Notes under the pieces: generated by a model
What the model saw: only the letters and a program-made list of their open reading frames with translations
What the model was told of the DNA's origin: nothing
Database searches by the model: none
Translations under genes and position numbers: made by a program
Assembly: GCA_920105625.2 (NCBI GenBank)
Contig: OV050030.1
Span: forward strand, 162,015,863-162,079,862
Length of the DNA stretch: 64,000 nucleotides
Source: Clusia tigrina
Taxonomy: Eukaryota; Arthropoda; Insecta; Diptera; Clusiidae
Reading direction: 5' to 3'
In this document: in pieces, positions 15,272 through 46,015 of the stretch
How positions within the stretch are numbered: position 1 is the stretch's first letter
Layout: each line of letters begins with the position of its first letter

Positions 15272-17020
15272 AGTCCTCTTTTACTTATTTTCAGCATTTT
15301 TTTATTACTGAACGATTTAATACAAATTAAAATAGTCTCATTTTGAGGCGTCCGGCCCTTGTTCCTCCAATTATCCTCATGGAAACCAATCCAGGGTTAC
15401 ATTCATATCAAAAGTCGAATAAATGCATAAAGCAAAAATGCACTTCAACTAAAAAAAAAAATTTTTTTTAATTAATGCTGGTTTCAAATAAAATTACCAA
15501 AATTATCAGACTTCTTAATCTCATGACAAATTCATTAGACAAAATTCCACTGTAAATCCTCTCTTATATATATTCTTCTTTTACTTGTTCTCCATTATAA
15601 GTTCCCCATCCGCTATCTACTAACGTCCATTAAGTCCTTCCGTCAATGCAAATTGGTCCTTGACTTCCTCAAATGTATCCTCAAACGTTCGCCCAACTCC
15701 AATTGTCCTTTTGCGTGTATAAAAGTGATAAATGTGTAAAAGTAAAAGTAAAAAATATTCCTAACAGCAAACAAACACAGCTATGACTTGGATGTGATTA
15801 CGGATGTGCATTCAGTTAAAATGTCTACGACTGATGAGGCGTTTCCACAAAGCGACAATGTTGTGGGTGGGTTCCTAATAGCTGATGCACGTGAATAAGC
15901 TGGGTGTGCCATATCCGTAGTCGAACAAATATAGTTGTTTGATTATATAATACACTGTACGGGTGGTTAATTTTTGTGCAATTGGCGTCAATTGTAGCGC
16001 ACTGTTGTTTAAACCCGGACCATTCGATTCTTTTTTTTCACTCAGATGATTCTTTATCAGTGTCTATAGATCTTTTTTATATGATGTATGGAACGAGAGA
16101 CACGGAATTGTTGCAGCAAAATTTGCCATGTAGGCAAAGATTTTTTATTTTACTAACAATTTGGTGGCAGTTATATATATTAACTATATCTTCTCTGTTG
16201 GACATGCTGTCGGTGCAATTGAGTAACTTGCCCCTACTACGTTGTGCATAATGAATAGTTCAATGTCACCAAAATAACAGCTGGTATGTGAAAGGACTTG
16301 TAGTATTTTTTTTTGTATTTGTATTGGAAGATTTTTGATTTCGTAGCTATGGGAGTTGTGCCCGCGTTTTGTTTCAAATTGATGAAGATTTAATATCAAT
16401 CATCTGGTAGAAAGCAATGCAACGGTGTATTCTAGATTTTAGTTTATATATTTTATTGTGCCACGCTGCAATGATGAAATCCTTGTGAAAAATTTTATTT
16501 TAGTGTAGAAAAGTTTTGGGAAAAGTTTCCTTCTAGTTTTGTGTTAACCTTTGTTTGATTGAAAGTAGTCCACCTTTTAGCTTTTAAAATTAAGTTTATG
16601 TCAAGTGGTCGTGCGAGGTTTGAGCTCAGTGGAAATCTGCAAATATTAACAATAAGATAGCGTAAACAAAAAACATATATCTGGAAGCAGCTGGAAGTCC
16701 ATTGGTGCCGGTGTTTTGCATATGGTGCCTGTAATGTACGAAAAAGAAAAAAATAAAGAGAAGGCGAATTTTGGAGGTCAATGTGGAGAAGTGACAGCAA
16801 AAACAGTCCTTCAACTTACAATCGAAATGGCATGTACAGCAGCTGTTTGTATCACACGAAATATTAGGCAGGAGTTTGCCACCTATGTCAGTACTCTAGG
16901 TTTCTTGGTGTTATCACTTAATTTTAATTTAAAATTTTTATATTCGCAAATAAAATTAAATTAATAAATTAAATTAATATAAAATTGAACAGCAGTTTAA
17001 GTATTGTGAGGACTAAGATC
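15272..17020. other. Non-coding stretch
   Basis: Nothing recognisable beyond short open frames of 60-100 codons on both strands. A TATAAAAG box at 15718-15725 is followed by AGTAAAAGTAAAA repeats, but no gene or LTR could be tied to it. Confidence 0.4.
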
Positions 17021-17358
17021 TTCTGTGAGAAATTTTGGCCCACACTACAGGTGACAGAGTCGCTACGCAACTATATCCACCCACACATCACGATAAAATA
17101 CCCGAACCGAAGCAACTGCATTCGAAATTTAGCGAAAAACTACATACGTTGTAAAAAATCAGCGCAGCAGTGGCAGGAGCACAGATCACCAGCAGCATAT
17201 TAGACCAGTTGGAATAATAGCAATTACAACAAAAACGACCACCACAACCAACAATCTTGCCAACCAGCACTACGCTTGCGAAGAAAGAAAAACCACAGCG
17301 ACGAAGAATACAACAAATACGTGCAGGACAAGAGAAGGTGAGTGCACGAACTCAAGCG

Positions 17359-17396
17359 GTGGAATTTGCCGAGTACGCTCGCTCGGTAAATTTTAC
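17359..17396 (+). other. 15-bp RNA-type hairpin with G-U pairs
   Basis: Arms 17359-17373 and 17382-17396 pair over 15 positions around an 8-nt loop (TACGCTCG). Three positions are G-T on DNA and would be G-U wobbles in plus-strand RNA. It lies in a CAA/ACA-rich non-coding block upstream of the stem-loop array. Confidence 0.6.
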
Positions 17397-17896
17397 ACTA
17401 ACAACACGCAGACACGAGAGCAAAGCCCAAGAGGGACAACGACAGAGCGACCACCACGCCAACAGCCAACGAGTACATAGCAGAAGGAGGAATAAGAACG
17501 AATATGCTAACTCCAAGTTAAATTGAAATATAATAATATTTAACAACAACAGCACTACAGGATTTCGGACAGCGCTGCTTGCAGCCAACAATACTGCGGG
17601 CAAACCAGAAACCGCTGGAGTGAGATGGCTGACCGACAGTATTTGAAGGTGGCCCAAAGGCAAAATGCTACAAAAACAACAAGCCTGGCCACAACAACAA
17701 CAAGCGTGGCGATTAGCAGAAAGCGAGGCCGGCCAACGGAAGGGAAATTAGACAACGGTGGCCCGTCAACAACAACATGCACCAACCGCTGTGACCAATT
17801 GGGCTATATAAGCCATGTGGCCCAGGCAGCAGTCTCTTCTTCAGGGAATAACTTCCGAGCCGACAAGAGCTTCACGAGAACCATACGCCGTCGAGA

Positions 17897-18088
17897 CTCA
17901 GTAAGAACATCAGGTTTCCAATCGGTTTCTTACTGAGACACATACTTTACTAAGACCAACACGATACAGAGCCGTCGCGACTTAGTGGGAACATCAGGTT
18001 TCCAATCGATTTTTTACTAAGTCACGTGCAAAACCAGAACATAGCAACTCAGTAAGAATATCAGGTTTCCAATCGGTTTCTTACTGGG
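17897..18088 (+). repeat. Array of three conserved stem-loops
   Basis: Units at 17897-17937, 17979-18023 and 18048-18088. Unit 1: 11-bp perfect stem (CTCAGTAAGAA with its complement). Unit 2: GACTTAGT with ACTAAGTC, then three G-U-type pairs and two A-U, 13 pairs in all. Unit 3: 11 pairs with one U-G. All three loops contain ATCAGGTTTCCAATCG unchanged. Stem positions that differ between units do so in matched pairs or as wobbles. Spacer sequences between units are unrelated to each other. Confidence 0.85.
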
Positions 18089-18146
18089 GTACCTGTGTCA
18101 CTGGACCATACACTTGCCGAGGAGGAAGTAGATCTGTTTTGAGTTA

Positions 18147-18164
18147 GGACTAACAACAGTCCTC
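18147..18164 (+). other. Small hairpin before the AATAAA signal
   Basis: AGGACT (18147-18152) and AGTCCT (18159-18164) around the loop AACAAC, 15 nt before AATAAA. Its loop is not related to those of the array. Confidence 0.5.
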
Positions 18165-18353
18165 AATCAGTATTTTGAATAAACACACTAAAACTAATCT
18201 AACTCGTCGGATTTTTATATTTTCTGTATACGACCCCTGGAAGCCACTGAGTTTAGCCCAGCTAAAGAAAACAGTCGTTACAGTAGAATAAAGAAATCAA
18301 CTAGAGAAAGCATACAACGAAAATATGTCAAACTTGTAGCATTCAACGCTGAA

Positions 18354-18551
18354 ATGGAGTCTAAAGAAATGGAAGCAAGTATCTTAAAAAATTTGGAGCA
18401 ACTGGCAGGTGCTGCCATATATATGGAAAAAGATGTGGGCGAGCAAAGACAAAAACACAATGCAGCACTCCTGCAACTGGGGAAGAACCTCACGCCTTTG
18501 GACAACACTCGTAAGGTAAACAACGACCGCATGCGAATTTGTCACCAGTGA
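18354..18551 (+). CDS. Short hypothetical ORF, possibly an ORF1 or gag remnant
   Basis: 65 codons from an ATG, rich in Glu, Lys and Gln, with a likely amphipathic helix. In-frame codons extend upstream to about 18300 before a stop. It sits between the TATA/AATAAA block and the endonuclease of LINE L. It could be the end of that LINE's first ORF or a decayed gag. I do not recognise it. Confidence 0.25.
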   Translation: MESKEMEASILKNLEQLAGAAIYMEKDVGEQRQKHNAALLQLGKNLTPLDNTRKVNNDRMRICHQ

Positions 18552-18759
18552 ATGGGTTTTAATGATCTCGACTACCTAATTTGCGGAACCTAAAAAGCTA
18601 AATTTATATTACTTGAAATGTTCGGTTCAAAAGTGAACAAAATAGACTTAAGATATCATAATTTATACTAAATAAAGTAAATTCTAAAAAATTAATAAAC
18701 ATTATTAACATCAAAATGTAATCAAAACTGCAAATCAAAATATATTAGAAAATATTAAC

Positions 18760-19432
18760 ATTACTATACTAACCTATAACATGCATGGTTTGCAAAACAA
18801 ATTCCTCTTCCCAGAATTGTTCTCATTTTTAAAACAGTTCGAGGTATTTGGACTACTGGAAACACATATCACAGAGGACAAAATATGTCAGTCGAATAAA
18901 TATTTCAAGAATTTTTACACCTATTCGAAACCAGTCACTACGGTCGAGCGAGTGCAGGAATGTTGTCTGGTGCAAAGCAAGATCTTGCTAAAAAGAGACT
19001 CAGCCAAACAAATGCAATGAAAAAGTCAAGCACATATTTTTTATTTCACAAACATATACACTAACATTGTTTCCAATTTACATAAGAGGGCCGACTGGAA
19101 AACGTAGTTATCGAACCTAAAAGAATATTTGAAACAAAATGCACTCATAAATTCAGTAATTATGGGAGAAGTGAATGTAAGAATAGGGCTGCTACAAAAT
19201 CCAATAGATGGCTTTTACAATGATTTATTCGCAGCTAGACTAGATAGGCGGAACTCTAAGGACTCAATAGTATTCTTAATGGCAGAACAGTCGGATACAC
19301 GCATGATAATATACAGGGAATTTCTGTTAACTGTGTTTGCACCATATCCCAAATCTGCTTGAATGTTGTCTGGAAGTTTAAGGTGGAAAGCAGAGTATGG
19401 TCGGACCATATGCCAATATGAGTCGAGATACT
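18760..19432 (+). pseudogene. LINE L endonuclease (APE-type)
   Basis: Starts at ITILTYNMHGLQNKF (about 18760) with LLETHI as the metal-binding glutamate block. After stops, SVIMGEVNVRIG near 19160 matches the G-D-x-N block of APE nucleases, with D changed to E. VWSDHMPI near 19400 is the S-D-H catalytic motif. Several stops and a frameshift near 19370 are present. Copia C begins 38 bp downstream. Confidence 0.7.
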
Positions 19433-19469
19433 AATATATGCTGGAGGAAATAAAGCTAATTGTGCATAC

Positions 19470-19613
19470 TGTCAGAATTAATATAAGGTATATTACGATA
19501 TTATGCTTTTTATTTAGACTAAGCAACATACGAGTATATATATTCTCTTCTTTTCTATTACTTGCATTAAAACTATTAAAATGAACGGACGTGTTCTTTT
19601 AATTTAGCTAACT
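19470..19613 (+). repeat. Copia-1 C 5' LTR
   Basis: Begins TGTCAGAAT and ends near GCTAAC. A 31-bp or so internal deletion just after the start removes the stretch containing CTAACAAATGCAACC found in the other LTRs. Confidence 0.88.
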
Positions 19614-36082: not shown

Positions 36083-36093
36083 CCTCCCCCTTT
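36083..36093 (-). promoter_or_regulatory. Polypurine tract of H
   Basis: AAGGGGGAGG in element sense, directly before the LTR start and just after the env stop. It is the expected plus-strand primer site. Confidence 0.88.
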
Positions 36094-37565
36094 AAATTCC
36101 AACGTCCACGTTGGATGAGTCATGATTTTGGTAATCAATGGAATGGACATGTACTGTTTCTATTTTTAAGGTTTGCTTTCTGGCCAAAATTTTCTTTGCC
36201 AAAAGGAAAATTAATCCCAGTATAATGACAGTAGGAAAGGTAAGGCTAGTAACGAGGGCTGCCTTATTCTTATGGGTCAAATCACGTATCTCTTCTAGAT
36301 TTTTGACGTGTAAGTCTTTTAAAGCTTTTAAGGAAAGTACTTCTTCGTATGAAGATACGTTGTTCATAGATTGTACTATGGCAGGCATTGGGCGAGCCAT
36401 TGTTTTTTCTTTGCTGAAGTAAGTTTTATCACCTATAGTTAAGGTAGTATTATGAAACTTTACAAAGAATGTTCCGTTAAGGGAAACTTCCTTTTTATCT
36501 AGTGAAATTATGCCCCTATATCCGTTTAATAGCATTAGACCAGGCATAACCTCTTCAATTGTTGGTAAATGATGATGGTTTGTTGTCGGACAGACGGACG
36601 GCGTTCCGGACAGAAGATTAGGTAAGCATTCGGTATCTGTAATGTTGTCAACGTTTTCTCTTTTGCACAAGGATATTTCGTTAATTAATTTACAATTAGT
36701 TTTTATTTCTAATATTGAATCTTTGCATAGAATAAAATTTACCTTTTTTATATTAATTACAAAATTGCCTTTTTTTACAGGTCTTATAAATAGGTTTTTA
36801 CAAATAATATTCTCGGTCTTAGGCAAGTTTACAATAAAAATTAATGTGTTTTTGCTAGAACTTATTTTAACCTCTGCAAACTCGAGGGCTTCGATAAGAT
36901 TAATATAAGGCAAACTTTGATTTGTAAAAAAATCCCTTATGGTTGTCAGTTCTGAGTTCGATAATATAAATGAATTTACGATGCCGCTTTTGGCCCATTG
37001 TATCGCGTAATTAATGTTTATAAGTTCCTCAGTTAAGATTTTTAATTTACGTTCGACGTCTTTAACTATTAAAGTCCTTAGTGAGTCCGAAGTTTTAATG
37101 GAATTAAGTACAGTGTTCGTCATGTTCGTAATGATTTGCAGCCTTTCTTCAATGGCTTTATTGATTACTATTTGATTTTGGTTATTTTTTAGCAGATTTT
37201 TAGTTTGGTCTGAAATAATTTGGAAATCTTCGTGGTCGGGTGTTCCAGCAATCCATTTCCAGGCAGTGCCTAGTGCGTCTATGGATCTTGCAGAGCGTTT
37301 AGGTCTCAATTCGTCAAGGATTTTTAGTGATGAGTTTAGTTCATGTAGTAGGAAGGTATAGCTAGCGTCTTTTCTCGTGATGTCCTTTTTAATTGTTTCT
37401 TCAATAGTGGTCAGTATTTTGTTGTATTGTTCCAAGTCGATAACGTGTAAAATTTTGAAAGTTCCGATGACTAATTTTGATTGTCCTGTCTCAGTAGCTA
37501 TTACTTGTGAATTTGAATAGTCCAGGATTTGAGTTTCTGGTCTGATTGACGCAATCAGGGTCCTG
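36092..37565 (-). CDS. env: Errantivirus envelope (baculovirus F-like), open frame
   Basis: Uninterrupted frame of about 490 codons. No ATG opens it: in-frame codons run up to a splice-acceptor-like TTTGCAG at about 37563-37569, matching the spliced env mRNA of gypsy-class elements; the signal peptide would come from an upstream exon. A furin-type R-P-K-R lies at about 37295-37306, followed by SIDALGTAWKWIAG, the F-like fusion-peptide region. Several Asn glycosylation sites, conserved Cys and one membrane helix (VTSLTFPTVIILGLIFLL) near the end precede a short cytoplasmic tail. The upstream exon was not found, so product formation is doubtful. Confidence 0.85.
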
Positions 37566-37578
37566 CAAATAGCGTAAA

Positions 37579-40500
37579 TTAATTTCTTATTAAATTCTTG
37601 TGAACAATTTTTTTGGATTCTGTTATAATAATTCCTCCCTTGTCTTCTTTAACTATTTCTTGTTTGTACCTCGGGGTCAATTTATTTCCTAATCGTTTAT
37701 TGCCTTTTACAAAAACAATATCTCCTGGAAGATACGTCCTAATTTCTGTTCTCTTTCTGTTGTGCGTCTTAAGGTCCTTATCTTGTTTTTCTGATATTTT
37801 TTGAGTGGTCAAAAGTCTGTCCTTTTTTAGTTGAGAGGGGTCTGCATAGTCTCTTCCAAAAAATGCTTCTATTGGTTTTTTATTTATGGTAGAATGTATG
37901 GAATAGTTATATTTATTAAGGGAGTTATTTAAAAGGTCCTTGAAAGAATCGTAAATTTTTTCGGCGTTAAGGCACCTCATTATTTCTGTGAGTGTAGAAT
38001 GAAAACGCTCTACCTGACCGTTTACTGTACTAGTATACGGAGGAGTGCGGTAAATTTTTATTCCCAGTTGAACATAAATGTGATCACTGAGGAATTTAGA
38101 GATTTCTCATTATCTATTACGATATTTTCGGGAGTGCCGAAAGAAATCAATAATTCCTGTAAGGGTGCTTTAATGTCCTCAGTTGCCCTGGATTTAATTA
38201 TTTTGGCTTGGGCGTATTTTGAAAATTTATCTATTGCCGTTAGGATGACTCTATTGTTTGTGTGGTATATGTCAAGGTGAATAAAATGTCCTGGATATTC
38301 TGGTAATGGGGTGTGTTTTAATATTGATTTACTTGGGTGTCGTTCGTACTTATTTTCTCTGCAAATTTTACATTGTTTGACTATTTTAGATATTTTTGCT
38401 TGCATTTGCGGAAAATAGTATTTTTGGAGAAGTTGGACCTTGTTCTCTTGCGTATGTCTGTGAGCTCTCTTATGTTCGTTAACAATTTCTGTCTGTTGTT
38501 CTGTGTCCGATGTCAAGTCAGTTACCATTGTCCTGGTGTACCTGATTCTATATTTTCCGAAATGGCTTGAGTAGATGTCTTGAATTTTCCCTAAGATACT
38601 GTCCTCTGTTTTGATAGCGTTTGTCACAGATGGGTTTAAATATTTTGTTAATAGCAATTTTAATTTGTCCTTTGTAAAGTGTATGTCCGTAATGGTGTGT
38701 CTGTGGTAGGTTGGGAAAATTACTTCAAATTTGTAAGAAGGGTCTCCAGTTGAAACTATTATTTGGTTCTTAAAAACATTAATTGGTACGTCTGTAAAAG
38801 GTATTAAATTTTGATATGAGCTTTCGTCACTGTGCCGGGTCGGAGTCATTGAGTTTACTTCGGTTTCTTTTAGTGTAGGTCTAGAAAGTGCATCGGCTAC
38901 AATATTTGTACTACCGGGTTTGTACTTCATTTCGTAATTGTACTCCTCTAAGATAGCCTTCCAGCGTTTAAGTTTGCTATTCGTGTTTTTGTTACTGAGG
39001 GCATAAGTTAAGGGCTGGTGATCCGTAAAAATCTTTACTGCAGATGCTCCGTAAAGATAGTTTCTTAGCGATTTTAAGGCCCAAATTATGGCAAGCATTT
39101 CTTTTTCGTTAGTGGCGTAATGCTCTTCACTCTGATTAAGTGTTCTTGATATAAACGTGATGGGTTTACCATCTTGCTCCAGAACGGCACCAATCGCAAA
39201 ATTGGAGCTATCGGTTGTCAGATGGAATGGTCTATCAAATGATGGAAACGAAAGCATAACGTCTTCTGATGAAAGCGTGTTTTTTATTTTTTTAAAAGCT
39301 TCTACTGCTTCACTGTTTAAAGTTATGGAAATTTTCGCTGACATTTTTTTGGACATGCGTCCCTCTTCCCCTCTTAAAAGTAAGGTAAGGGGTTTTGCGA
39401 TTTTTGCATAATCTTTAATAAATCGTCTATAAAATCCTGATATCCCTAGAAATGATCGTAACTCTTTTATTGTAGTTGGTGGTTTTAATTCTTGTATGGC
39501 CGCTACCTTGGCAGGATTAGTTTTTATACCCTTTGTTGATATAATGAAGCCCAAATACTCTACTTCCTTTTTAAGAAATTCGCACTTATTGAGTTGAACC
39601 TTCATGTTGGCTTTTTGGAGAGTGTCAAAAATGGTTTCTATATTTTTAAGATGAGTCTGTTCATCTGGACCAAAAATTATGATATCATCTATGTAAACAT
39701 AGCAGATTCTGCCAATGTGTTCCCTAAGGATATCGTCTAAGGCTCTTTGAAAAATGGCAGGCCCATTCTTTATCCCGAACGGGACCCTCGTAAATTCGTA
39801 TTTTGCGTTATTGATCGAGAAAGATGTTTTCTCCATGTCCTTTTCTCTTAAAGGAATTTGGTGAAAACCACTTTTTAAATCAATTACAGAAAAATATTCA
39901 TTTTTGCCAAGTTGTGCCAAAACTTCATTTATTTCAGGTATTGGATACCTGTCAGGGATGGTGATTTCGTTTAGTTTTCTAAAGTCTATGACCATTCTGT
40001 CTTCTCTAATGCCTGAGGCATTTAATTTTTTTGGGACTGCCCACACTGGAGCGTTATAAGGTGATTTAGATCGTCTGATAATGCCATGATCGAGTAATTT
40101 GAAAATTTCTTTTTCTATTGAGTCTTTCATTGCCATCGGATATGGGTAGTATCTTGAATATACTGGGGCGTCCGTGGTTGTTCTTATTTCCGCTACTACG
40201 GTTGTAGTAAATGTTAGTTTTTCGTCCGGATCCAAAAAAAGTTTTGGATATTTATGGCACAGAAGGTATAGTTTGTTTGCTTGTTCGTTTGTCATGTGGT
40301 CTGTCCTAATGTCTATATTGTTCACTGACTGTGACAATTGTTGTTTTATAGGAATTTTTATTACGTTGTCGATAAGCATAAAATTTTTGGATGTAAAAAT
40401 TATGGCTTTAAGTTGTTTAAGGGTGTCGTTGCCCAGAATTCCACAAAACGATTTTAGTTTAGGCAAAAGGAAAAATTTTAGGTTTTTGGATTTTATACCA

Positions 40501-40700
40501 AATAGGTTGATAAACGTATGGTGAGTAATTGGCACTTGGCCTCCTACAGAATTGGCTTTAAATATAGTTTTATTTTGTATTGGGTTTTTGACTAATGACG
40601 ACTGTATGTAGTTTTTGTTGGAACCGGTGTCTATTAGAAATTTTAGGATCTGTCCGTTGCCTGTCTTACATTGAAAATATGGCAACGTGGAGTTTGTTAT
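37579..40700 (-). pseudogene. pol: Errantivirus H pol (one frameshift in integrase)
   Basis: The 875-codon part (38058-40685) has protease FLIDTGSNKNYI; reverse transcriptase with DFRKLNEIT, FSVIDLKSGFHQIPL, FGIKNGPAIFQ and VYIDDIII (Y-I-D-D); RNase H with TTDSSNFAIGA, NEKEMLAI and FTDHQPL; and integrase with its HHCC finger (H-x-R-x-H, C-x2-C), first Asp (HLDIYH) and second Asp (IVIDNEKS). A frameshift near 38055 separates the third residue (NGQVERFHS) and the C-terminal domain (37579-37980). All visible catalytic residues are canonical. The single slip is recent or a sequencing matter. Confidence 0.9.
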
Positions 40701-41700
40701 TCTAAAAAATGAACATCCGAAAATTCATTTTCTTGTGAGCTATCTTCCTGTCCAAAATATTGCTCGAGGTATGCTGTCAAGTCTTCGTCAGGTTCATTTT
40801 CCTGTTGGGGTTCTGTACTATTGTCCGTTACTTCGTCGGGAAAATTTTCATTTTCGTTATTAGTTTCAATATGGTTTACTCTTTGAAATTTAGCTGGCTG
40901 GTGTATTTGTGACGACTGTGGTGGAGGTCTTGCTCCTGAAAACCTATTGTTGTTTGGAGCTGGTCTATTCATATAGTTGACCATTTTTGATCTTATGGAT
41001 GGGTCTATCTCCATTGGAACTGGAGGTTTCTGTTGGGTTGGTCTAGGTGGTGGCTGAAAATTATGTCTTGTCGGGTATGAAAACTGATTTTGAGGCATTT
41101 GGTGACTATAGTGCCTAGTGGCGTTCATATTGTTTGATTGTGGATTGAATCTTTGAACGAATTGTGGTACTTGTGGGCGCATATTGTTTTGTGTGGTATA
41201 GTTGGGTCTCGGAAAGTTTGGCATTTGAGGATAGTATGCTAATTGTGGAAAAAAATGTTGGTTGTGGTTTTGGTTATTTTGTTTGCGTTGAGGAATAGAG
41301 GGTATTTTACTATTGTTATTTGCATATTGCGTCCTAAATTGCTGATTGTCTAATTTAAGGCATAAATGTAAGGCTTCGTTCAAATCTGATGGTTCTCTTA
41401 TTCCTAAAAGTCTTGGCAAGTCGCCTCTGAGGCCCCTTACAAAGGTGTCCAAGGCCTTGTTGCGGTAATTTTTTGTTAATAAATGTATGGCTTCCTCGGT
41501 TTCTTCCATACATGCAATTTTATTTAAGATCAAAGAAAGGTGGGCGTAGACTTCTTTGTAGAAGTCCTGTACCGAACTATTACCCTGTGTCATAGATGAC
41601 ATTTGATATTCTAATGTTCCTAGATCCCTTTTGTCCGCATAGTGTGTTGTGAGACATTTAATTATACAATCCCAATTTAGTGGGGTATTGTAGGATTCTA
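40697..41700 (-). pseudogene. gag: Errantivirus H gag, 5' truncated
   Basis: Errantivirus-type gag without a zinc knuckle: capsid part ([33 protein letters not shown]), a Gln/Asn/Pro-rich basic stretch, and an acidic end ([19 protein letters not shown]). The frame stays open to 41761, but the first 20 or so residues are only the antisense reading of LTR sequence. Real gag begins inside the truncation near 41700, so the N-terminal third is lost. Confidence 0.85.
40703..40709 (-). promoter_or_regulatory. Slippery heptamer for gag-pol -1 frameshift
   Basis: TTTTTTA in element sense lies at the gag stop (F-L-E-stop). A -1 shift there enters the pol frame (R-I-T-N-S) without any stop. This fits the X-XXY-YYZ rule and the known gypsy gag-pol arrangement. 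Confidence 0.75.
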
Positions 41701-41875
41701 ACGCTATGTCTATGCCATTTACCTTTAATTTTAACTTTTCCTTTTTTGCACTTGTTTCCAAATAATTTTAGTATTAAGCAAATTTATGTAATGACAAAAA
41801 TACTATAAAAAAGCGTAATAACCAATAAAGAGATTCATTAATAATTCACACTTCAAAACGTGCATTTCATTAACT
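41700..41875 (+). repeat. Inverted LTR fragment of H
   Basis: Matches the last 176 bp of the 3' LTR but in plus orientation, opposite to the rest of H. Starts at the gag break and ends ATTAACT. Confidence 0.88.
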
Positions 41876-42279: not shown

Positions 42280-44220
42280 TCAAAAACTTTGCTTCGGTAA
42301 TGCCTTTGTTAAACCATCAGCCAGTTGATCAGATGATGCAGCATATTCCAATTCAAATACATGGTCTTCATACTTCTCTCTTATAAAGTGGTAACGAACG
42401 TCGATATGTTTCGTTCGTTTATGAAACTCAGGATTCTTTATAAGACGTATAGCGCTTTGGTTGTCAACATAAAATTTCACCATCTCTGGATTCCCAAGAT
42501 CTGTCCAGAAATTTTTGAGCCAAACCAGTTCCTTTACGGCATTTGAAGCTGCAATATACTCGGCCTCTGTGGTTGAAAGAGAAACACATTTTTGCAGTTC
42601 AGAGCACCAGCTTACAACACTCTTGCCAACCATGAAAACAAAACCAGATGTAGATTTCCGAGTTTGCACATCGCCAGCGTAGTCTGCATCGCTGTAGCCA
42701 CGAATATTAAGGCTGCCTTCACTGTTGTAGTGTATTCCCACGTTAGTTGTCCCGTTGACATATCTAAGGATTATTTTTATTGCATTTACATGTGCTGTCG
42801 TAGGATTTTCCATATACCGACTCGCATTTGATACTGCAAATGCTATATCTGGCCTTGTGGCTACTGCCAAATACATAAGACTTCCAACTGCCTCTCTATA
42901 TGGAAAGTTGGCAACATTACCAGTCTTCTCGACAAAATCGCTCAAATTGGTGGAGCCATCTGCAGGTGTTGCTGTAAAAGAGGAACTTTCCATATTAAAC
43001 CTAGCAATTACCTTTTTGGCGTAACCTTCCTGACCAATAAAAATCGAACCATCAGCTTTGCGCTGAATTTCAAGTCCCAGAAACAGTTTCGCCTCGGAAA
43101 ATGTAACTCTAAATTGTGCTTGTAGATGTTCCATCAAGTCCGAAATGAGCTCACGCGAGGTAGACACAACTAGCCCATCATCAATGTAGATAGCCAAAAT
43201 GATGCAACCACTTTCAGTGATACGTGTAAAGACACACGAATCATGGTTTGAGGATACAAAATTAAAAAGCTCCAGAAACTTAGTGAACTTTTTGTTCCAA
43301 CACCTTGATGCTTGCTTAAGCCCGTATAAACTCTTCATCAATTTGCATATGCGACCGCTTCCATCATCATACCCGAATGGTTGCTTTATATAAATGTCTT
43401 CCGATAAATCGCCATACAAAAACGCTGTTTTCACATCGAACTGCAGAATGTGCATTTTTCGTGCTGCTGCCATGGCCAATATACACCGAATAGACGTAAA
43501 TCTTGCTACTGGACTAAATGTTTCTTCATAGTCTACTCCATACTCTTGACTAGAACCTCTGACAACTAAACGCGCCTTGTATCGATCAATATTTCCTTTG
43601 GCATCTCGCTTTATTTTGAAAATCCATCTATTGTCAATAAGCTTTTGGTTTACAGTCGGTTCAACCATTTCCCACGTACCATTTTCAATCAATGAATGAT
43701 ACTCATCCTCCATAGCTAGCTGCCACTCTTTACGATCTTTAGATTTTAAAGCTTCTGCATAAGACTTAGGTTCTTCGCATGTCATTATATCTGCCAAGTG
43801 TGTTGAAGTAGTTTTGCTACGTAAACGACGAGCAATACAGCTTTTGTCCTTGTCATCTACGTCCTCAGCGATATCATTCACACTATCATAGAACACACCA
43901 TCTTCCGAGTCCTCGACCTTGACATCATATGTGTGGTCCTTATGATTTGCCGTGTTGTCCGAAATATTTTCAGCAATTTCTTCTGCCAAGATATTCGTTT
44001 GACTTTGTGTCTTCAAAGTCAGTGCTTCCTGGACAAATTTTACGTCACACGCAATTTCGATCTTTCGCTGATCCCGGTTCCAAATCCTGAAAGCTCTGCT
44101 GTTACCAGCATAACCAACAAATACACCTTTGCATGACTTTGCATCCAATTTTCTTCGCTTTTCCTTCGGTATGTGTACATAGACTTCTTCGCCGAAGCTT
44201 CGAAAATTATCAAAATTTGC
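42280..44220 (-). CDS. Copia G integrase end, reverse transcriptase and RNase H
   Basis: 622 uninterrupted codons (from 44148; homology extends upstream). Integrase C-terminus (GVFVGYAGNSRAFRIWN), then RVT_2 reverse transcriptase: WQLAMEDEYHSL, KARLVVRGSSQ, FDVKTAFLYGDL, YGLKQASRCWN and AIYIDDGLV (Y-I-D-D). RNase H: IRGYSDADYAGD, LSTTEAEYIAAS, FYVDNQSAIRL and the final ASSDQLADGLTKAL. All catalytic acids are present, so this is the best preserved enzyme in the window. It is not a separate gene; it would be released from the polyprotein. Confidence 0.9.
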   Translation of the reverse strand, partial: ANFDNFRSFGEEVYVHIPKEKRRKLDAKSCKGVFVGYAGNSRAFRIWNRDQRKIEIACDVKFVQEALTLKTQSQTNILAEEIAENISDNTANHKDHTYDVKVEDSEDGVFYDSVNDIAEDVDDKDKSCIARRLRSKTTSTHLADIMTCEEPKSYAEALKSKDRKEWQLAMEDEYHSLIENGTWEMVEPTVNQKLIDNRWIFKIKRDAKGNIDRYKARLVVRGSSQEYGVDYEETFSPVARFTSIRCILAMAAARKMHILQFDVKTAFLYGDLSEDIYIKQPFGYDDGSGRICKLMKSLYGLKQASRCWNKKFTKFLELFNFVSSNHDSCVFTRITESGCIILAIYIDDGLVVSTSRELISDLMEHLQAQFRVTFSEAKLFLGLEIQRKADGSIFIGQEGYAKKVIARFNMESSSFTATPADGSTNLSDFVEKTGNVANFPYREAVGSLMYLAVATRPDIAFAVSNASRYMENPTTAHVNAIKIILRYVNGTTNVGIHYNSEGSLNIRGYSDADYAGDVQTRKSTSGFVFMVGKSVVSWCSELQKCVSLSTTEAEYIAASNAVKELVWLKNFWTDLGNPEMVKFYVDNQSAIRLIKNPEFHKRTKHIDVRYHFIREKYEDHVFELEYAASSDQLADGLTKALPKQSF

Positions 44221-44560
44221 CGGTTGTCCATACCATAACTCATGCCGTGTTTTTGTGCCACTGTGCTAGTACCAGTTCGATTTAAAACATATACTGCTGT
44301 GTTTGTAGCTTCTGCCCAAAACTTTTTGTCCGTGCTTTTTGCATGCAACATCGCTCGGGATAGTTCCATCACTGTTCTCATTTCTCGTTCTGCACCGCCA
44401 TTTTGTTGGGGAGTATACGGCACCGTACGCTCATGCTTGACTCCAAATTCATTAAAAATTTTTATCACACCTTCGTTGACAAACTCAAGCCCATTGTCTG
44501 TACGAATCCGCCTTATTTTCTGATGACCAACTTTCTCAGCTTGAAATTTTTAATAGCATT
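44040..44560 (-). pseudogene. Copia G integrase middle
   Basis: Holds the second Asp (R-T-D-N-G-L-E-F, near 44490) and the Glu (PQQNGGAEREMRT). A frameshift near 44220-44230 moves reading to the reverse transcriptase frame. The integrase cannot be made whole. Confidence 0.87.
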
Positions 44561-46015
44561 TGTTACATCAGATTTTTCTCCATATGATTTTACTTGCATT
44601 GGGCCGCATACATCTGCAAAACACAGCTCTCCACAGCTTGAGGATCTTGCTTCGCGCGATTTAAAGCTGATTCTGTGCTGTTTGCCTAAAATGCATCCTT
44701 CACATGTAAATTCCTCCTCAATGAAATCCACATTGACTCTCTTGAGGAACTGCCTAACATGTCCCACATTTTGATGCCCCATTCTTTCATGCCATGTTCG
44801 CAGAGATAGCTTTTCTGTTGTCAGTATATTTGCCTTGCCATATTCTTGAGTTTTTATTAGCATTTGGAAAAGCTTTTCCCGACGAACTCCCACTGCCACA
44901 GTGCTTCTATCTGTTCTTATGAATCTACAGCTCCTGCTGTCAGATTCAAACCCAAACCCTCTATTCAATGCCTTTGTTTGAGAAAATAGATTGTAGTGGA
45001 TGTCCGGTACATACAGCACATTTGTCAGCACTTTCTGCACCCATTCATGACCGTCGTTTACTACCACCGCAATATCACCTTTTCCTACAGCCTTGATAGC
45101 ACGTCCATCGCCTACCCTGACGATTTCATTACAGTTGGTAAAGGTAACAAACCAATCGCGTTGATTACTCATGTGGTCCGTTGCGCCTGAATCGAGAACC
45201 CACGTTTCCAATTTGCTGCTGACATTCGCTCCACATACCAACGCCTCAACGTTTTTACCATGAGTCTCATTCTTAAACGATTTACACAACTGCGGAAAAT
45301 CCCGTTTAAAATGGCCTTTTTCACCACATTTAAAACATCCGCCTCTTTTTATTGTTTTACCGCTTTTCCTTTGCTGTTCTTTCCCACCTTGTCGACTTCG
45401 CACCCTTGCTATAAAAGCTTCGGTCTTAGCTTTTTCTTGGGCACCCAAACGAATTTCTTCAGCCATTAGCCTTGCCAGTAAGTTGTTTAAGCTCTGATCC
45501 TCTGACCGTACGGACTCCCAGGCACTATAGAAGTGATTATATTCTGGTGGCAGTGACATCAAGACTTTTGTCATGATCATTTTATCTGATATGGTTTCAC
45601 CTTGGTCACGTAGATGCTGCACAGTCTCCATTAACTTTGACAGGTAGGTAGTAATGTCGTCATCTGGATCTTTTGAAAAGCTGTAGTACTTTTGCATTAA
45701 AAACAACACGTTTGACTTTGATGTCTGCTCGTAAACACTTTTTAATGTGTCCCACATGCTTTTAGCAGTAACACAGTTCAGAATTTGTAGCAAAGGTTGC
45801 TTTCCTAATGCGATACTAATTGTTCGTCGAGCTTTCGCATCAATTTTTCGCCAAGTTTTTTGCTCCTTTTCTCCCTGACTAGGTAACACCTGCTCCCCTG
45901 TGACCACATCGCACATGTCATCAGCTTCCAAAATTTGAACCATTGGGAATTTCCACGTCAGCCACTGCGAGCCATCTTGGAGCTTGTCAAGTTTTATATC
46001 ACCGCCTGATGCCAT
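44513..46015 (-). pseudogene. Copia G gag, protease and integrase start
   Basis: Begins MASGGDIKLDKLQDGSQW with an ATG just after the leader. A UBN2-type gag domain (W-D-T-L-K-S-V-Y, MSLPPEYNHF) is followed by a zinc knuckle whose last ligand is lost: C-F-K-C-G-E-K-G-H-F-K-R-D-F, Phe for Cys. Protease WVLDSGATDHM; pre-integrase with W-H-E-R-M-G-H and C-E-G-C; first integrase Asp in FADVCGPM. About 30-40 residues of the integrase core are missing after SYGE, and a frameshift near 44550 ends the frame. Confidence 0.88.

Follow-up and report, generated by a model that had tools for sequence, protein, structure and literature searches.

A Widespread Tandem Array of Bulged Hairpins in the Predicted R Region of a Ty3/gypsy Solo LTR

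Described Systems and the Carrier LTR

The cis-acting signals for packaging, dimerisation and export in insect LTR retrotransposons have, to our knowledge, been little described. In gypsy, the Su(Hw) array is a tandemly repeated element located downstream of the LTR promoter, but it is composed of linear DNA sites without paired arms; the motif of these sites contains TGCATA. In murine leukaemia virus, SL-C and SL-D are two hairpins that lie downstream of the LTR and have letters different from those considered here. According to the available part of PMC7599994, this GACG hairpin pair of the viral packaging signal represents tandem hairpins in an RNA leader, which is its likeness to the array reported below. 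Structured elements in R are exemplified by the murine leukaemia virus R stem-loop and HIV TAR (PMC2664473, available sections), and the array reported below is likewise predicted to be located in R; however, these elements do not form arrays of like hairpins, whereas the family of the element studied here mostly contains two to four hairpins with the spacing kept. LTRs of the Osvaldo lineage are about 1 to 2 kb long (997–2055 bp in the new Culex members), and the lineage mostly has 4-bp target duplications and a tRNA-Lys primer site; the accessible portion of the survey mentions no hairpin array in this lineage (PMC3286476), whereas the element studied here has one. No description of a tandem hairpin array in R was found in the available parts of PMC10886601, PMC3601003, PMC3286476, PMC10309623, PMC7599994 and PMC2664473; one may still have been published.

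The window analyzed here is a stretch of 64,000 nucleotides of Clusia tigrina DNA. Its plus strand contains, at positions 17005–18282, a solo LTR of 1278 bp with TG...CA ends and Osvaldo-like features, the boundaries of which were taken from its copies, since these have sharp common ends corresponding to 17005 (TGTGAGG) and 18282 (GTTACA). Identical 4-bp flanks were found in 10 of the 16 copies with both ends present and no primer site (L001, L003, L013, L014, L017 twice, L025, L026, L027 and L028), those of L017 and L027 lying within TA repeats and hence being hardly informative; in 5 of the 16 copies (L011 twice, L016, L019 and L021), the flanks disagreed. The flanks of the window LTR, GTAT and GTAG, agree in three of four positions and may represent a decayed 4-bp target duplication. 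A primer binding site (at most 3 mismatches) followed 7 of the 37 arrays with at least 400 nt of downstream sequence and was absent from the window copy; this 18-mer is one that we take to be of the tRNA-Lys type. In L020, a copy with a primer site, open pieces matched the aspartic protease, RNase H and integrase families, and the named relatives of its pol piece were mainly insect proteins. When relatives of the L020 pol piece were sought in public viral contigs, one stretch fitted a peptide pattern and none was confirmed. Thus, the common ends, target duplications, primer sites and protein families of L020 show that the hairpins are carried by a Ty3/gypsy retrotransposon LTR, of which the window contains a solo copy. 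The element resembles the Osvaldo lineage in LTR length, TG...CA ends, primer type and 4-bp duplications, an assignment based on these features. Copies of the LTR were also observed beside or within TA-rich or TA microsatellite DNA (L011, L017, L027, L028, L033 and L090), and TA-rich stretches are a possible insertion target preference of this LTR.

TATATAA and AATAAA each occurred once in 17005–18282, both strands counted. The former lies in the TATA box TATATAAG (17805–17812, plus strand), with transcription predicted to start near 17831, and the latter is the poly(A) signal at 18178–18183 (plus strand), which was taken as the 3′ limit of the predicted R. Since the hairpin array lies between these sole signals, it was placed in the predicted R region, in agreement with the original prediction, which had compared its position to that of R in an LTR. 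A TATA-like match was present no more than 140 nt upstream of the array in 45 of the 49 arrays with enough sequence, and AATAAA was present no more than 480 nt downstream in 27 of the 37 arrays with at least 400 nt fetched (duplicates included in both counts). Directly upstream of AATAAA, a small inverted repeat with 6-bp arms and a 6-nt loop was read from the sequence at 18146–18163 (plus strand); it is also present in L090, which belongs to the second subfamily described below.

Hairpin Units and Their Copies in the Genome

Three hairpin units were identified on the plus strand of the window, namely, unit 1 at 17895–17939, unit 2 (A type) at 17979–18023 and unit 3 (B type) at 18046–18090, with covariance model scores of 69.8, 63.8 and 63.5 bits, respectively. 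The 45-nt unit consists of 13 outer pairs, a bulged base, three pairs, a second bulged base, a tip of four pairs and a 3-nt loop, which gives 20 possible pairs and two single-base bulges; in units 1 and 3, it is two bases longer at each end than originally proposed, and its second pair is a mismatch in these two units. The 16-nt core is identical in all three units (17909–17924, 17993–18008 and 18060–18075), and the hairpins as a whole are 76–89% identical to one another. Excised with short flanks, units 1, 2 and 3 folded at −16.1, −18.0 and −15.7 kcal/mol (z = −3.1, −5.2 and −4.6, respectively), with stems exactly where they had been predicted; the stem changes noted at that time, a C-G to T-A swap and G.U wobbles, were also present. 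Folded as a whole, the predicted R region had a z of −3.35, with 0 of 100 shuffles as good; its centroid contained all three hairpins, and its minimum-energy structure contained only units 2 and 3. RNAalifold applied to 27 units predicted 13 of the 20 pairs of the unit unaided. A scan of the window with the covariance model (E up to 5) revealed the three sense-strand sites, weaker antisense shadows of them and nothing else, and Rfam gave no covariance-model match over the array (positions 16500–19500, E up to 5).

A search of the 1.2-Gb genome for the core, which had been suggested together with the prediction, revealed further copies: the exact 16-nt core occurred 415 times, and a looser hairpin pattern, in which parts of the inner arms and the tip were fixed, gave 841 matches, the two sets partly overlapping. 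The backward-pattern control gave 0 in both cases, and chance duplication of the window units was thus ruled out. Among the exact-core units of this genome, segmental duplicates included, 86 of 92 had at least 9 of the 13 outer pairs in an ungapped count; five of the remaining six were read as an arm indel or deletion, which depresses the count because it is ungapped, and the sixth, L007, was joined to other repeats. Loss of the stems with the loop kept, which would favor a DNA site, was therefore not the pattern found. In public viral contigs, used as an outside control, 21 exact cores had 2–7 of the 13 outer pairs; they were rejected as true relatives, since the arms were absent and the matches chance-like. 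The possibility that L007 and L008 represent a second, unrelated LTR family with one unit was also rejected: the L007 flank matched different repeats across the genome, one of which has opposite-strand copies nearby. Both loci were left out of the unit, pairing, strand and array counts (220 and 203 units; 101 arrays).

Array form was examined in 101 loci of this genome, a non-random sample composed of the heads of contig-ordered pattern lists and the best-scoring matches, with 40 candidates scored each, in which contig C1 predominates and segmental duplicates are included. The arrays contained one (5 arrays), two (36), three (16), four (37), five (2), six (3), seven (1) or nine (1) units, and two to four units were thus present in 89 of the 101; this count was made without L007, L008, L047, L082, L086 and the viral contigs, and some arrays were clipped by the fetched stretch. 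The most frequent unit-to-unit spacing was 67 nt (125 of the 216 intervals of up to 260 nt), followed by 101 and 68 nt (29 each). A and B hairpins were 67–80% identical in L019 and L028, and the hairpins of L033 were 82–84% identical. As had been claimed for the window, spacers of different positions (A-to-B and B-to-A) appeared unrelated, being at or near the shuffled level, with 1 of 10 comparisons above its 10 shuffles; the claim did not extend to same-position spacers of repeated dyads, which were 86–95% alike, with A hairpins 89–98% and B hairpins 71–93% alike. In an array of the second subfamily, two of three spacer pairs were above their shuffles. The hairpin dyad was also observed in satellite-like rows with 168-nt steps (G000 C3:50482273-50485108 and C4:10882412-10883625), L122 being the beginning of one such row. 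In G000 C1:113092630-113154172, the hairpin unit recurred mostly every 2.86–2.89 kb among the matches listed, as if a larger repeat containing part of the LTR were arranged in tandem.

The arrays fall into subfamilies that differ in the loop. Of the 220 distinct units, 163 had an unmutated tip, with the apical loop TCC in 58, TTC in 48, TTT in 38 and rarer forms in the others; a 4-nt loop was found in 10 of the 163. The loop is therefore invariant, as originally described, within the window subfamily, and over all subfamilies it is TCC, TTC or TTT depending on the subfamily. Compared with the window LTR, the second subfamily (L090 and L092) had 85–87% identity over much of U3 and 85–90% near the LTR end, but only 67–72% over the leader and the array; in the first 195 bases of L090, identity was likewise only 70%. 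The array may have been exchanged between subfamilies, or it may evolve faster than U3 and the LTR end. In units of the second subfamily, which were 67 or 68 nt apart, the loop was mostly TTT and the bulge T, and the TTC loop marked further subfamilies. Thus, between subfamilies, the loop letters and the second bulge change, whereas the tip pairs and the arms persist, which is the opposite of what is expected if the loop is kept while the stems are lost. The tip GGTT-NNN-AATC, a near inverted repeat, is among the most constant parts of the unit, and its G.U pair was found in 31 of the 32 unit types recurring at two or more loci. CCAAT is present in the core of the window subfamily and missing where the loop is TTC or TTT; the reading of the core as an NF-Y (CCAAT) site was rejected for this reason.

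Conservation of Base Pairing and Strand Preference

Base pairing was evaluated against a tree-based null, in which the tree and substitution types were retained and the columns moved, for 203 distinct units (obtained from 313 unit matches, 5 of them skipped); the structure tested was read from the window units, which were themselves within the test. At least 10 of the 13 outer pairs were present in 182 of the 203 units. In the 32 types found at two or more loci, some of which recur solely via segmental duplication, 90.3% of cells were paired (null mean 81.9%, maximum 87.5%, 400 runs), and in the 203 units this value was 85.5% (null maximum 77.9%, 80 runs). Cells with a two-sided change numbered 43 in the 32 types and 232 in the 203 units, against null maxima of 32 and 154, respectively. 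Pairs with a two-sided change were not remarkable in number, with 7 in the 32 types (null maximum 7) and 10 in the 203 units (null mean 13.9). Among the 20 pairs tested individually for covariation, only pair 5 reached E < 0.05, and pairs 1, 8, 9 and 13 had P < 0.05 singly in the recurrent set, in which 17 of the 32 types lacked pairing at pair 2 and 17 at pair 16-28. Covariation as strong as that of paired columns was also found at unpaired columns that distinguish the subfamilies. The covariation expected from the original prediction was thus recovered for overall pairing and, with the exception of pair 5, was mostly not significant for single pairs.

Shuffle and slid-partner controls, which leave kinship in, whereas the tree-based null takes it out, were applied to two further sets. 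In 27 representatives chosen by the analyst (24 distinct), 90.4% of cells were paired, and 28 cells had a two-sided change, compared with at most 8 when the partner was slid and a mean of 10.1 in shuffles; a two-sided change was present in 6 pairs, a count reached in 35 of 500 shuffles, and 197 of the 500 reached the observed count of further pair types. In 133 distinct rows, 88.0% of cells were paired, with 178 two-sided cells (at most 109 in 200 shuffles and at most 60 when slid) and 9 pairs with a two-sided change (7–12 when slid). The first covariation test, performed on these 133 rows, gave one significant pair, and stronger signals were found at unpaired subfamily-marking columns. Thus, pairing as a whole is kept beyond the tree-based null, and the evidence for each pair is thin. 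That several subfamilies retained pairing although their letters had changed suggests a working structure. In unit 3 of L026, a change of both partners of stem pair 9 by transversion, from G.U to C-G, was observed, which L025, L030 and L031 lack.

On terminal branches of the tree, which was built from 45-nt units and is noisy, 43 of 120 changes kept pairs (36%; null 35%), and inserted copies therefore appear to decay freely, the two-sided change in L026 standing apart; on internal branches, pairs were kept in 25 of 59 cases, a slight excess (42%; null mean 37%, maximum 45%). It thus appears that constraint operates prior to insertion, which fits a function borne by the element rather than a co-opted host site.

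If a hairpin is maintained as sense RNA, G.U should be better tolerated than A.C. The ten central pairs of the 32 recurrent types contained A.C 7 times against 35 in the null (P = 0.004), other mismatches 6 times against 37 (P = 0.002) and G.U 20 times against 35 (P = 0.12), the depletion of the latter being not significant. For these types, the excess of G.U over A.C was not significant in the central stem (P = 0.22) and was absent when 19 pairs were considered (P = 0.79). When 85 distinct whole arrays were folded, unit hairpins formed in 165 of 286 cases in sense and 160 of 286 in antisense, and arms of different units were able to pair with each other. Single units folded lower in sense in 92 of 133 cases and in antisense in 41 of 133; of 12 unit types, 9 folded better in sense and 3 in antisense, two of these three having fixed A.C pairs. 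The original description of the array as a working RNA element is thus supported in part, in that stem pairing is kept beyond the tree-based null, and it gains no significant strand excess; since the strand tests are indecisive, we hold the RNA reading in even balance.

Possible Function and Alternative Explanations

The array is real, widespread and structured, and it lies within an otherwise ordinary retrotransposon LTR. It may well be a cis-acting RNA element of the retrotransposon for genome packaging, dimerisation or export, a reading to which we give about as much credence as doubt. Being in R, the array would occur twice in every genomic RNA, once in the 5′ leader and once at the 3′ end. 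A row of like bulged heads could provide avidity for a protein, such as the Gag nucleocapsid or an export factor; alternatively, interchangeable arms could let two genomic RNAs pair. In this way, the hairpin row would serve packaging, dimerisation or export, and the number of units within R could be altered by template switching. We infer transcription of R as predicted, RNA as the working form, and the partner. More specifically, and only as a tentative proposal, this group of LTR retrotransposons could use the R array of variable dose as its genome-handling signal, by which Gag or an export factor grips, pairs or circularises genomes, the tandem form of the array being renewed by template switching during reverse transcription. 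The 841 pattern matches, with their natural variation in arm letters, loop and unit number, could serve directly in tests of such a signal.

A different origin of the same features, which we consider unlikely, would require no selected function: template switching would resize the tandem repeats, and snap-back copying between arms would match the inverted repeats and thereby mimic covariation. Such a process would fit the variable unit number (1 to 9, with four units in 37 and two in 36 of the 101 arrays), the satellite-like rows of 168-nt dyads on C3 and C4, the similar folding of sense and antisense arrays and the two-sided change in L026, which is absent from its close relatives, including L025 with the same flanks. 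However, snap-back correction should erase bulges and wobbles too, whereas 163 of the 220 distinct units combine an unmutated tip with the exact two-bulge spacing (the other 57 were unsorted, and unit 1 of L070 lacks one bulge), and the G.U of the tip persists in all but one of the recurrent types. The lack of a pair-keeping excess on terminal branches and the fact that hairpins are kept while spacers of different positions are not also argue against it. If this explanation were true, the array would clearly illustrate how reverse transcription keeps inverted repeats matched without selection.

We regard as rather improbable that the array acts at the DNA level, either as protein sites of an enhancer or insulator or as cruciform-forming inverted repeats just downstream of the promoter. 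The strand preference, which was not significant, and the constancy of the near inverted repeat at the tip are compatible with this possibility, and gypsy is known to have an array of binding sites in its transcribed leader. At the same time, a site defined by its letters needs no arms that change in matched pairs, the CCAAT of the core is missing from units with TTC and TTT loops, and A.C and other mismatches in the central stem are depleted while G.U is not significantly so. The specific comparison with the Su(Hw) array, which had been put forward as the main alternative, fails, since the TGCATA core is absent from both strands of 17005–18282. Very unlikely, finally, is a role in which the array, like the R stem-loop of murine leukaemia virus, regulates the use of the poly(A) site, the stability of the RNA or its translation rather than packaging or export. 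The stem-loops predicted in R of beta-, gamma- and lentiviral LTRs (PMC2664473) and the second, small inverted repeat ahead of AATAAA would agree with such a role, but the R stem-loops described in the available sections of PMC2664473 are not tandem arrays of like hairpins.

Two other groups of ORFs were observed on the minus strand of the window. Judging by the ORF list, consecutive ORFs of 354, 875, 133 and 447 aa at 36092–41761 seem to encode gag, pol, the tail of an integrase and an envelope-like protein, as in a gypsy-type element. Copia-type ORFs were found at 42280–46015; the best public match of the 622-aa Copia-type ORF was an unnamed record, 54% identical over 99% of the length.
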